Origin: Methylotenera sp.
Lineage (GTDB): Bacteria > Pseudomonadota > Gammaproteobacteria > Burkholderiales > Methylophilaceae
Assembly (NCBI GenBank): GCA_014378845.1
Contig: JACMNB010000014.1
Location: 1 to 43,527, forward strand
Length of the DNA stretch: 43,527 bases
Direction: 5' to 3'
The notes beneath the pieces were generated by a model. That model ran no database searches. It saw only the letters and a program-made list of their open reading frames with translations, and was not told the origin of the DNA. Below, piece after piece: positions 1 to 2,982 of the stretch. The position numbers and the translations under genes are program-made. Position 1 is the first letter of the stretch, and each line of letters starts with the position of its first letter.

Positions 1-1
1 A

Positions 2-76
2 TTGCTAGACTTTGTTAGAGGTAAAATTTTTACTGAACAATGTTGGAATATTATTGAAATACAAATAATCGAGTGA
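2..76 (+). CDS. Possible C-terminal end of a protein cut by the window edge
   Basis: Reading from base 2 gives 24 codons ending at TGA (74-76), with the residues LLDFVRGKIF followed by TEQCWNIIEIQIIE. The composition looks protein-like, but too little is present to recognise a family. It runs opposite to the tRNA and rpoD. It could also be chance open frame. Confidence 0.25.
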   Translation: MLDFVRGKIFTEQCWNIIEIQIIE

Positions 77-177
77 GTAGAATAGTGCTGAATTTTTTGT
101 CAGATAAAACCAACAGGCTAAAAACCTACCGTCTCAATTATACTCATTTTAATATTTGTAAGTGGACTTCCCAGACT

Positions 178-315
178 TCAGTAGACATTTGATAATACAA
201 GCGCTTGATCAAAACGCATACCATAAACATAACCAACAAAAGAAGAATCAAAATCTCCCAGTAATTTAAATAATTGGGATTCATTCGTAATAATTGTGTT
301 GATTAAATCACTCAT
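178..315 (-). CDS. Small 45-residue ORF, unknown; possibly a truncated gene
   Basis: An ATG at 315 opens a 45-codon frame that begins MSDLINTIITNESQLF and ends at a TGA at 178-180. The residue mix looks like real protein rather than antisense noise, and a 24-bp inverted repeat lies just upstream. No domain is recognised, and the abrupt end suggests the N-terminal remnant of a longer gene. Shine-Dalgarno support is weak. Confidence 0.3.
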   Translation of the reverse strand: MSDLINTIITNESQLFKLLGDFDSSFVGYVYGMRFDQALVLSNVY

Positions 316-329
316 ATTTATCCATTTTT

Positions 330-353
330 ATTTGTTAGTATTTATTAACAAAT
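330..353. repeat. Inverted repeat upstream of the 45-residue ORF
   Basis: ATTTGTTA and TAACAAAT form 8-bp arms around an 8-base spacer. It lies 15-38 bases upstream of the ATG at 315, in an operator-like position, but the AT-richness makes chance pairing possible. Confidence 0.4.
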
Positions 354-423
354 AAAATAACAGAAATTCCTATTTTGAGTGAAGGTTGCAGAATGCATAT
401 TAGCTATGACATACTGACTCAGT

Positions 424-460
424 AAAACAAAAACGACCTAGAGATTTCTCCCTAAGTCGT
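424..460 (-). terminator. Rho-independent terminator of the tRNA-Ile(CAU) gene
   Basis: On the minus strand, 7 bases past the tRNA CCA end, ACGACTTAG...GGAGA pairs with TCTC.TAGGTCGT in a long stem with one wobble and one bulge, followed directly by a T-rich run. The position and form fit termination of the tRNA transcript. Confidence 0.8.
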
Positions 461-466
461 CTTAAA

Positions 467-758
467 TGGTGGCCCCTCTGTGAGTCGAACACAGTACCAA
501 CGGATTCTGGTTTGTGACGGTTTCCCGCCTCCCTGGACTATGCCTTCACCATAACAATCATACGATTGCATTAGGTGGGTGCCGTCTAGTCTCTACACGT
601 TCAACAAGCATTTCTACCTGAAGCTTCGCTCGGCATTGCCTTGTGCATTGCTGCCGTCAGGTTTCACCGAATTTGACACCATCCCATATACAGTTTCCAC
701 GTATATGGCACATTTACATATGAGTCCGCTGCTCTAACCAAGCATGAGCTAAGGGGCC
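467..758 (-). tRNA. ileX: tRNA-Ile(CAU), interrupted by a group I intron
   Basis: This is the isoleucine tRNA whose CAU anticodon is converted by TilS to lysidine-AU so that it reads AUA codons. The 5' exon (720-758, 39 nt) gives acceptor GGCCCCT, D-stem GCTC/GAGC and the anticodon arm up to CAT. The 3' exon (467-506, 40 nt) gives AA-TCCGT, a 5-base variable loop, T-arm CTGTG-TTCGACT-CACAG, acceptor AGGGGCC, discriminator A and an encoded CCA. Joined, the exons make a normal 79-nt tRNA with all stems paired. The 213-nt intron sits between anticodon base 36 and base 37. The gene lies downstream of rpoD on the same strand and has its own terminator. It is called Ile rather than Met because the acceptor and arm sequences match the tRNA-Ile2 family and because Azoarcus carries the same intron at this site. 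The gene symbol is assigned by analogy. Confidence 0.93.
507..719 (-). ncRNA. Self-splicing group I intron (subgroup IC3, Azoarcus type)
   Basis: This intron lies in the anticodon loop of tRNA-Ile(CAU). On the minus strand it opens with ATGTAAATGTGCC, so that internal guide GTG can pair with exon CAT and form the U-G wobble of P1. A P2 stem capped by a GGAAAC-type tetraloop follows (CCATATAC/GTATATGG). Next come the catalytic core strings GAGACTAGACGGCACCC and GGCATAGTCCAGGGA, whose ACTAGA/TAGTC parts form P7, the guanosine-binding site. The P9 stem is capped by GAAA, and the terminal omega-G is at 507. It encodes no homing endonuclease. It closely matches my recollection of the about 205-nt Azoarcus BH72 pre-tRNA-Ile intron, including the core and tetraloops, while peripheral stems differ in sequence but keep pairing. 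Function (self-splicing) is inferred from this match. Confidence 0.93.
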
Positions 759-902
759 GTAAACTTACAACGTGGGCATTTTATAGCACATACCCACATT
801 TATTCTATTCTGAAACCACTTACTTAATATTGTTTCAGTTTTACAAATTACTTTTTACTGCTATATACGCCTAAGCACATGAAAATTATCTTAAAACTTT
901 CT

Positions 903-941
903 AAAAAAATTTTAGAGCATCGGATTATGAGTCCGCTGCTC
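903..941 (-). terminator. Terminator-like hairpin built from the tRNA fragment, behind rpoD
   Basis: On the minus strand GAGCA (937-941) pairs with TGCTC (915-919), and inside it CGGA pairs with TCCG around the loop CTCATAA. Only one G-A mismatch separates the two helices. TAAAA and then seven T follow. The stem uses the D-arm 3' strand and anticodon arm of the partial tRNA. It is the only terminator-like structure between rpoD and the full tRNA gene. The four A before the T-run make it less than ideal. Confidence 0.55.
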
Positions 942-965
942 TAACCAAGCATGAGCTAAGGGGCC
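921..965 (-). pseudogene. Intronless 5' half of tRNA-Ile(CAU)
   Basis: These 45 bases are identical to bases 1-45 of the spliced form of the nearby tRNA: acceptor 5' strand, whole D-arm with the same unusual loop, and anticodon arm with CTCATAA uninterrupted. The match stops after AATCCG, where the sequence turns into ATGCTCTAAAA. No variable loop, T-arm or 3' acceptor strand follows, so it cannot be a working tRNA. It lies 20 bases behind the rpoD stop codon in the same orientation as the full gene. Confidence 0.85.
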
Positions 966-985: not shown

Positions 986-2932
986 TTAATCTTGTCCTGT
1001 TTCCAAGAAACTACGCAGTCGTTCTGAGCGTGTTGGATGACGCAATTTACGCAGCGCTTTTGCCTCAATTTGGCGAATGCGTTCGCGAGTGACATCAAAC
1101 TGTTTGCCTACTTCTTCAAGCGTGTGATCCGTGTTCATCTCTATACCAAAGCGCATACGCAGCACTTTTGCTTCGCGCGGCGTAAGAGATTCTAGCACTT
1201 CGCTGGTGGCATCGCGCAAGCTGGCATAAACGGCGGCTTCCATCGGCGCAAGTGTAGCATTGTCTTCAATAAAATCGCCCAAATGGCTGTCTTCATCATC
1301 GCCAATGGGCGTTTCCATCGAGATAGGCTCTTTGCTTATTTTTAAGATTTTACGAATCTTATCTTCTGGCATTTCCATTTTTTCGGCCAACAAGGCCGGG
1401 TCTGGCTCTATGCCTGTTTCTTGCAAAATTTGACGCGAAATACGATTCATTTTATTAATCGTTTCAATCATATGCACAGGAATACGAATCGTACGCGCTT
1501 GGTCGGCAATACTGCGCGTAATCGCTTGGCGAATCCACCACGTGGCATAAGTAGAAAACTTATAGCCACGGCGATATTCAAACTTATCGACCGCTTTCAT
1601 TAGGCCAATATTGCCTTCTTGAATCAAATCTAAAAATTGCAGGCCGCGATTGGTGTATTTTTTAGCAATTGAAATCACCAAACGCAAGTTGGCTTCAATC
1701 ATTTCGCGTTTAGCACGGCGCGCGCGCGCCTCACCCGTGGTCATTTGCTTGTTAATTTCTTTTAGCTCTTTAATCGGAATACCGACTTTAGTTTCTAACG
1801 CAATTAGTCTATCTTGTTGATCGACAATAGAGTGTTTATAACGCACCAATTTTTCAATATACGGTTTTTCTAAGCGCAATTCGTTATCTAGCCAAGTTAA
1901 GTTAATCTCGTTACCTGGAAAGCTTTTGATGAAATGTGGGCGCGGCATACCCGATTTATCTACGCAAAATTCCATAATTTTACGTTCGTGACCGCGCACT
2001 TCTTCCACCAAAATACGCACTTGTTCGCACAAGGCTTCAACCTGTTTGGCAGAGAATCGAAACGCCGTTAGCTCTTGCAACACCGATTCATGCAGCTTTT
2101 TATAGCCCGCATTTTGCGAACCTTCATTTTCGCGAATCAAGTTCATCTCGGTGTTGGCCTTGCGAATAATCGCAAAACGCTTTAATACTTCTTCTTTTAA
2201 TTTTGCCAATGCCTCAGCTGAGATTGCGGCGGCTTTTGCGCCATCTTCATCATCGTCTTCATCGGCATCAACATCAGGCTCTTCTTCATCGGCCACTTCG
2301 GCGGCAATTGCATCTTCTAAACCAATATCGCTATCAATTAAGCCATCCACCAAATCATCAACACTTAGCTCATCTTTTTCGACTTTATCAACCATATTTA
2401 ATAATTGAGTAATCGTGGTCGGGCAAGCAGCAATCGCTTGCACCATGTGTTTTAGGCCATCTTCAATACGTTTGGCGATTTCAATTTCGCCTTCGCGCGT
2501 CAGCAAATCTACCGTACCCATCTCGCGCATATACATACGTACTGGGTCTGTGGTGCGGCCAAAGTCAGAATCTACCGTGGCTAGCGCAGCCTCTGCCTCT
2601 TCTACCGCATCTTCGTCGGTTACAGGTGCTGGCGCATCCGACATTAACAACACTTCAGCATCAGGCGCTTCTTCGTACACCTGAATGCCCATATCGTTAA
2701 TCATGCCAATAATGCCGTCAATTTGCTCAGAGTTTTGTACGTCATCTGGCAAGTGATCGTTAATCTCAGCATAAGTTAAATAGCCGCGCTCTTTACCCAA
2801 AATAATCAGCGTTTTTAAACGTGAACGGCGCGCTTCGGCGTCCATCGCCACTGCCGCTGGATCTAGCGCCGCTTCGGCTGCTAGCTTATTCCGCTCTTTT
2901 TCTAGGGTTTTGTCTGATTTTGGTCTGGCCAT
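986..2932 (-). CDS. rpoD: RNA polymerase primary sigma factor RpoD (sigma-70)
   Basis: This is the housekeeping sigma factor that directs RNA polymerase to -10/-35 promoters. From the ATG at 2932 it has 648 residues. Visible parts are region 1.1, region 1.2 ([16 protein letters not shown]), an acidic spacer rich in D and E in the non-conserved region, regions 2.1-2.4 with [20 protein letters not shown], and region 4.2 with [17 protein letters not shown] near the C-terminus. The open frame extends 10 codons further to a TTG at 2962. I prefer the ATG giving MARPKSDK because GGATCAGG precedes it and the upstream codons fall in a tandem repeat. It is the last gene of the rpsU-yqeY-dnaG-rpoD cluster but has its own likely promoter at 3031-3059. 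Confidence 0.97.
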
Positions 2933-2952
2933 GCCTGATCCTATTCTATACG

Positions 2953-2982
2953 TACTATTCAAGTACTATTCACTTACTATTC
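2953..2982. repeat. 11-bp tandem repeat in the rpoD leader
   Basis: TACTATTC occurs at 2953, 2964 and 2975, an exact 11-base period, with a further CTATTC at 2941. The repeat lies between the -10 box and the rpoD start codon, so it is transcribed as GAATAGTA units. Eleven bases is close to one helical turn, which would place any bound protein on one face. Confidence 0.65.

Follow-up and report, generated by a model that had tools for sequence, protein, structure and literature searches.

The 45 bases behind rpoD in a 43,527-nucleotide stretch of Methylotenera sp. DNA (contig JACMNB010000014.1, here called the window) are very probably the left attachment scar of an integrative element that brought with it a complete, intron-bearing replacement tRNA(CAU) gene. 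In the sequences compared, the native tRNA(CAU) gene is split at a constant break point, its displaced 3′ half is found in some genomes, and a complete tRNA gene lies inside the insert of one genome (G077). From this arrangement we infer a recombinase, presumably of the tyrosine type, that would exchange strands within the CTCATAA of the native intronless tRNA(CAU) gene behind rpoD. The gene would thereby be split, with its 5′ half staying behind rpoD and its 3′ half moved to the far end of the insert. The left end of the insert would supply the complete replacement tRNA(CAU), with a putatively self-splicing group I intron inside the same anticodon loop, and because this gene is complete the cell would have kept a needed tRNA. 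Much of the element would later have been lost or would have decayed in most lineages. Since the intron splits the 7-bp crossover sequence, the tRNA of the element could be immune to integration.

Read on the minus strand from 965 to 921, the scar is identical to nt 1-45 of the spliced tRNA(CAU) and lies 20 nt behind the rpoD stop, and the intact intron-bearing copy begins 207 nt beyond it (Table 1). A repeat search returned a 44-nt exact direct repeat (719-762 and 926-969), composed of four upstream bases (TTAC), the 39-nt 5′ exon and one further base. The scar runs on with AATCCG across the intron site, which gives the 45-nt match to the spliced tRNA, and diverges thereafter. Direct reading and the repeat search thus agree with the initial annotation, which had described 45 bases identical to the spliced form of the split tRNA that pass the intron site uninterrupted and then break off. 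Judged on sequence, an exact match of this length 207 nt away is not a chance event. An assembly error is argued against by the recurrence of the same structure in many separately assembled genomes.

With default settings ARAGORN finds no tRNA in this region; when introns are allowed, it reports a single tRNA(CAU), its 213-nt intron placed at position 40, and labels the tRNA Met from the CAT anticodon. We take the tRNA to be most likely tRNA-Ile2, the identity of Azoarcus-type genes. The Azoarcus-type intron is small, lies in the anticodon loop of a CAU tRNA and contains no open reading frame. An Rfam search gave nothing at gathering scores; the match to the group I intron family RF00028 reaches 46 bits (E 2e-10), slightly under the gathering score of 50. 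A group I core, at this sub-gathering score, is thus found together with the anticodon-loop position in a tRNA(CAU) given by ARAGORN. In the window genome (G000), the right junction of the element coincides with a contig break.

Table 1 Features at the rpoD 3′ end of the window
Feature	Position	Strand	Basis
rpoD (658 aa)	986..2962	-	Open reading frame and translation; stop at 986
5′ half of native intronless tRNA(CAU): scar, probable left attachment site	921..965	-	45 nt identical to spliced tRNA; recurs in relatives
CTCATAA, 7-nt anticodon loop; proposed recombinase overlap	925..931	-	Common to scars and displaced 3′ halves
Inverted repeat around the loop (the hairpin of the initial annotation); proposed recombinase core arms	914..942	-	Arm complementarity and fold
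T7 run after the hairpin	903..909	-	Length not conserved; absent from terminator scan output
Spacer from scar to tRNA, presumed left end of the inserted element	759..924	-	70.9-89.0% pairwise identity among seven genomes with the same left-end type
Exon 1 of the intron-bearing tRNA(CAU)	720..758	-	Sequence comparison, ARAGORN
213-nt group I intron within the anticodon loop, following T36	507..719	-	Rfam RF00028, E 2e-10; ARAGORN i(40,213)
Exon 2 with encoded CCA	467..506	-	Sequence comparison, ARAGORN
Terminator-like hairpin behind the intron-bearing tRNA	430..463	-	Terminator scan
Inferred element interior; contig ends at 1	1..429	.	Displaced 3′ halves on another contig, beginning with the crossover sequence

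We searched 187 genomes with the intron and obtained matches in 26, several of them by decayed or cut pieces only; genomes holding merely such pieces (e.g. G095, G116, G174 and G182) were left unclassed. At least 12 relative loci (L005-L013 and L015-L017) carry an intronless tRNA(CAU) gene behind rpoD. The proposal that rpoD was formerly followed by such a gene is borne out by the persistence of this state in relatives (e.g. L005, L008, L012, L013 and L016). A scar lies behind rpoD in G000, G007, G022, G023, G049, G059, G067, G077, G082, G135 (where the contig ends just past it), G139 and G148, and also in G160, G162 (where part of it reads N), G164 and G175. On contig C5 of G142 the scar is cut to 18 nt, apparently by a deletion between two ATGCT repeats, and in G088 the intron-bearing tRNA lies directly behind rpoD without a scar, a state that recombination between the two 5′ halves would produce. 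The comparison of rpoD 3′ regions suggested by the initial annotation yields intronless, intron-bearing and scarred states alike. Every family scar tested has rpoD as its upstream gene, and most of the other scars have either rpoD or hrcA. In L160 and L163, rpoD is situated about 1 kb farther upstream; in L151 and L166, a stretch of 3.2 kb contained neither gene. Limnohabitans (L150) and Polynucleobacter (L148, L160 and L163) records that are not titled as MAGs also carry the arrangement.

The position at which the scars end was determined by aligning exon 1 of each copy, extended by AATCC, to the preceding 900 nt of the same copy, with no core sequence required and the query ending at nt 44. 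Among 43 intron-bearing copies, 25 have an upstream copy of the 5′ half that ends at nt 41, 43 or 44; nt 41 is the last base of CTCATAA, so these scars stop just past the anticodon loop. Of the other 18, L096 runs into N, L042 ends at nt 18, and 16 have no scar, which runs contrary to the integration reading; three of the scarless copies (L041, L048 and L153) carry CTCATAA with a different left flank. A second count, in which CTCATAA was sought and the break point assumed, gave 21 scars, 3 cores with another flank and 16 copies with neither among 40 copies. Relative to this count, the 25 of 43 include in addition the decayed scar L166 as well as L046, L049, L098 and L163. Twelve duplicates and nine short entries were left out before the 40-copy count (L138 being also among its copies with neither), and L138 (too short) and L178 (false exon 1) before the 43-copy count; L086 and L046 lack the 3′ pattern of the core-requiring search and are therefore absent from its 40 copies.

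What follows CTCATAA differs between lineages. At least eight sequences occur there, some of which resemble each other: that of the window genome (TCCGATGC); TCTATTCAAG; TCCAACGC/TCCGAAAT; TCCGTTTACTC in G023; and ACAA..TT (Limnohabitans type), GAAAGAA (Polynucleobacter), TCTATTAACTC (Sterolibacterium) and TCCGTTAAGT (Oxalobacteraceae). In the 21 scars of the core-requiring count, 162-232 nt separate the scar core from the exon 1 core. Spacers are of similar length from one lineage to the next, as would also be the case if homologous recombination spread a short unit.

Both junctions of an insert are visible in G077. Here, the host 5′ half is followed by CTCATAA, the left end, the intron-bearing tRNA, a 150-aa ORF without a Pfam match, the right end (...TTGAAGCTA), CTCATAA and the 3′ half. 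The insert is 1,209 bp long and holds the complete intron-bearing tRNA(CAU), and the displaced host 3′ half starts at CTCATAA. The intron-bearing tRNA lies with its own terminator-like sequence inside the insert, and the 3′ half with another outside it. The same TTGAAGCTA occurs in G058, where one long right end (...TTTCTTGAAGCTA) is joined to a host 3′ half on contig C134 and to the left end of an element on C76, the latter join being a tandem or circle junction. The right-end arms match at 10 of 14 positions in G058 (0.00125 of shuffles) and at 9 of 14 in G077 (0.009). A 7-bp overlap with inverted core arms is thus present, with scars ending at nt 41-44 and arms in G058, G077 and the window.

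Two 3′ halves are found on contig C36 of the window genome. The first begins with the contig itself, one base ahead of CTCATAA, and a HipA-like gene (Pfam) comes after it; the second precedes a GalE-like epimerase gene (Pfam), and a gene that looks similar by eye is found past the intact tRNA of G038. The HipA-like gene (L050, 800-2071) lies between the two tRNA 3′ halves, an arrangement that amounts to a stacked island at the same tRNA. When scar and displaced 3′ half are joined in silico, ARAGORN recognizes a tRNA(CAU) both in G000 (with the first C36 half) and in G077. A target tRNA split at one core with both halves present is therefore found in G077 and, across contigs, in G000. The initial annotation had an intron-bearing newcomer replacing the native gene and leaving the scar; this much is supported, and what it missed were the break in the anticodon loop typical of site-specific integration, the displaced 3′ halves of some genomes and the complete tRNA in the incoming DNA of G077.

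We searched 19 carriers for displaced 3′ halves with a CTCATAA core, allowing one mismatch, and found them in six (G000, G058, G059, G077, G162 and G175) and in none of the other 13. One G059 half and the halves of G162 and G175 show a different right end (...TGTA) and are possibly parts of other islands. The 3′-half match in G142 is to an intact gene without an intron, whose contig has another rpoD end. No displaced half was seen in the complete genome G022 or in the examined stretches of G142 C5, G049, G148, G139, G023 and G088, which counts against a simple recent insertion in these genomes.

The lack of a displaced 3′ half in most carriers would suit an insert that gave a promoter and an intron-bearing 5′ half and reused the host 3′ half, so that the displaced piece is the 5′ half only. 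Islands of this kind are a known minority: 159 of the 3,919 islands in Islander (PMC4383910) carry 5′ tDNA fragments and 3,760 carry 3′ fragments. The window sequence past exon 2 also resembles, by eye, that of the intronless genomes G038 and G050. We nevertheless consider this reading distinctly improbable. G077 has a 3′ half outside the insert, and its intron-bearing tRNA keeps its own exon 2 and following sequence; the intron-bearing tRNA of G023 differs in sequence from its scar; and a right junction of this type would require the very CTCATAA that the intron interrupts.

The scar folds into a hairpin (-13.3 kcal/mol, z -3.1). The initial annotation had ascribed its GAGCA/TGCTC pairing to the break; the hairpin exists, but part of the pairing is that of the anticodon stem itself, since the arms of the native intronless gene are complementary at 7 of 13 positions (0.032 of shuffles). 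In the window scar, 12 of 13 positions around CTCATAA are complementary, with 0.00005 of shuffles as good. The anticodon loop and stem are described as matching the 7-bp overlap and arms of integrase core sites in the sections consulted of an archaeal review (PMC8371274) and of the Islander paper (PMC4383910). The inverted repeat of the scar accordingly looks more like a recombinase core site, which it fits at least as well as it fits a terminator.

The stable hairpin and the T7 run had also suggested that the break made a terminator that may now end rpoD transcription. That the scar is an rpoD terminator arising from partial duplication of a tRNA is, in our estimate, very unlikely. The T7 run (909-903) begins four bases past the stem, so the scar hairpin lacks the T run at once after a GC stem that marks an intrinsic terminator, and a terminator consensus scan reported only the hairpin at 463-430 and not that of the scar. 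Among relatives, G022, G059 and G007 have a shorter T run and G139, G142 and G175 have none; the scar is kept although the run varies (in G142 C5 in shortened form), and its break point is constant in lineages with different following sequence. The terminator reading was dropped after the scan and the comparison with relatives.

A second insertion site is seen in G142, where contig C52 holds another copy of the spacer and intron-bearing tRNA, joined at GACTCATAATCC with the same core. The flank of this unit resembles, in a short alignment, the sequence beside tRNA-Lys in G050, and C52 itself carries ffh and tRNA-Lys some 37 kb from the unit, with a Mu-like prophage in between. This prophage (L041/L126/L127, about 8-45 kb of C52; Mu transposase Pfam match) directly adjoins the ectopic unit. 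The G142 assembly has two different rpoD 3′ ends and is therefore probably mixed. A junction downstream of tRNA-Lys in G059 was set aside as a right end, since the sequences of G050 and G142 point to a relic of that locus, and we counted it only as a second insertion site.

The uninterrupted passage of the scar across the intron site had left room for a retrocopy of spliced tRNA, or for a tandem duplication followed by intron gain. Such an origin has next to no probability and is rejected on the constant break past CTCATAA, seen in many lineages, and on the matching displaced 3′ halves. It would also leave the differing left ends and the G142 C52 junction unexplained, and it is contradicted by G077 and G058. 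The 45-nt piece is best taken as the scar of an attachment site and not as a retrocopy.

Sequence comparisons bear on how the unit spreads now. In seven genomes with the left-end type of the window (21 pairs), rpoD (last 1.35 kb) is 74.1-85.6% identical, the spacer 70.9-89.0% and the intron 93.6-98.7%. The non-coding spacer exceeds rpoD identity in 15 of the 21 pairs; third codon positions are 46-62% identical, an approximate figure from a nucleotide alignment with gaps. In another left-end group (G077, G049, G148 and G160), the corresponding values are 75.0-78.3% for rpoD, 50.8-79.1% for the spacer and 84.2-94.1% for the intron, so that the spacer is not clearly better kept than rpoD and the intron alone stands out. 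This pattern fits lateral movement, with constraint as the alternative.

Homologous recombination might be the main route by which spacer and intron-bearing tRNA spread today, any action of an integrase being old. The nearly constant spacer length within groups agrees with this, as does the fact that no integrase or right end is seen in most carriers. We hold this to be unlikely, if well short of negligible, as some scars track the host lineage and not the unit (a GGCCCCC variant is common to G135 and G057, and G142 C5 agrees with the intronless G069 from rpoD stop to tRNA), and both the second insertion site in G142 and the element-element junction in G058 speak for integration. The B-type spacer occurs in 8 of the 187 genomes, one of them (G057) by 25 nt and discounted, and the E-type spacer in 2. 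A free-standing spacer element was rejected, as the spacer was found in the 187 genomes only with the intron-bearing tRNA, save for the discounted G057 match. No known phage or plasmid record covers as much as 80% of the query, and the matches listed (20 of 76 and 20 of 88) are short and partial, none with the scar arrangement. Eight viral contig stretches match the intron pattern. These IMG/VR contigs (L105-L112) have the same intron type, most with CAU-type exons on both sides (by eye), and roughly 1 kb of each, read by eye, contains no scar.

Later insertions appear to have used the intron itself. In seven loci, displaced fragments begin near intron nt 162-170, and six of these continue into most of exon 2 (L148 (3146-4950), L163, L178, L087, L090 and L093, with L092 lacking most of exon 2). 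In Polynucleobacter L148 an identical 85-bp repeat flanks a 1.7-kb insert. Later elements may thus use the 3′ end of the intron as their attachment site. Other displaced intron pieces start at nt 37 and 42 (L085), 108 (L089) and 103 (L100); those of L085 (G160), separated by about 3.7 kb, are two further downstream copies of intron and exon 2. G077 also has a diverged second copy of the intron-bearing tRNA, situated away from its rpoD locus and without a scar (L086, C5 at about 49.3 kb).

Candidate recombinases were found in a few carriers. In G007 the intron-bearing tRNA is directly followed by the gene for a 424-aa protein (Arm-DNA-bind_3, Phage_int_M and Phage_integrase); G164 has in the same place a contig-cut relative, 65% identical over 175 residues and covering the first two domains only. 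Both integrases could belong to later elements and are no more than candidates for action at CTCATAA. Islands at the same tRNA in G066, G110 and G059 C19 have a different integrase group, and no integrase gene is seen in the 1,209-bp insert of G077; in the window genome only an incomplete element is available. A 453-aa gene in L144 was rejected as an integrase, having no Pfam match.

We further suggest, as a scheme whose chances fall somewhat short of even, that a class of elements carries a complete tRNA(CAU) whose group I intron interrupts the 7-bp overlap of the recombinase and so would hide the replacement from its own and rival recombinases. Putative self-splicing would keep the tRNA working, deletion between the two 5′ halves would yield a plain intron-bearing gene, and a second wave of elements would target the 3′ end of the intron.

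Some contigs show further features. C5 DNA methyltransferase genes (Pfam) lie downstream of the intron-bearing tRNA in L036 (3368-4525) and L041 (5888-6994) and are possible defence cargo. The same tRNA is carried by a contig titled Akkermansia muciniphila (L137), whose HrcA is 98.5% identical in protein sequence to that of a Limnohabitans MAG; this is probably a misassigned MAG contig.

The loci share several features with known systems. As in Islander islands, the target tRNA gene is split, a displaced fragment marks one end and the crossover lies in the anticodon loop; 2,083 of the 3,919 Islander islands were scored as anticodon-centred, going by the portion of that paper used (PMC4383910). 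Islander islands restore the split gene with a fragment, whereas here, as G077 shows, a complete, separate intron-bearing tRNA is provided, the left ends are unlike a tRNA 3′ half and the host gene is left in halves. Partial tRNA genes have likewise been described as footprints of mobile-element integration (PMC9897764); the accessible part of that report describes no intron-bearing replacement gene of the kind present here and does not contain the word intron. The closest precedent, to judge from the available part of the report, is the model for tRNA-Thr(GGU) of Caldiarchaeum (Sugahara 2012, PMC3293823), in which a tRNA 5′ fragment also lies upstream of the intron-bearing copy and the archaeal tRNA-Thr intron is proposed to derive from the attP of an element and to prevent further invasion. 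That case concerns an archaeal bulge-helix-bulge intron in one natural population, in contrast to a bacterial group I intron in many lineages here, and both junctions at one 7-bp core are seen here, in G077, unlike in that system. The Azoarcus-type group I intron in pre-tRNA-Ile (PMC3984707) likewise occupies a tRNA gene and is familiar as a model of splicing; no link to integrative elements was found in the literature searched. Among the open-licence papers listed, titles and abstract starts contained no bacterial case; most subscription journals fall outside this scope, so novelty is only weakly indicated.

The movement of small group I introns from one tRNA gene to another, in the absence of a homing endonuclease, is an open problem, for which a reverse-splicing route has been proposed without direct experimental support, according to the part of the review consulted (PMC3984707). 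The loci described here suggest a vehicle, namely integrative elements that disrupt this very tRNA gene and bring the intron-bearing copy as a rescue gene. They also suggest a selective reason for the position of the intron, because it disrupts the attachment core. If true, this would explain the spread of group I introns without homing endonucleases through bacterial tRNA genes. The archaeal idea that tRNA introns guard against integration (PMC3293823, in the part available) becomes testable in bacteria with the Limnohabitans and Polynucleobacter records named above.
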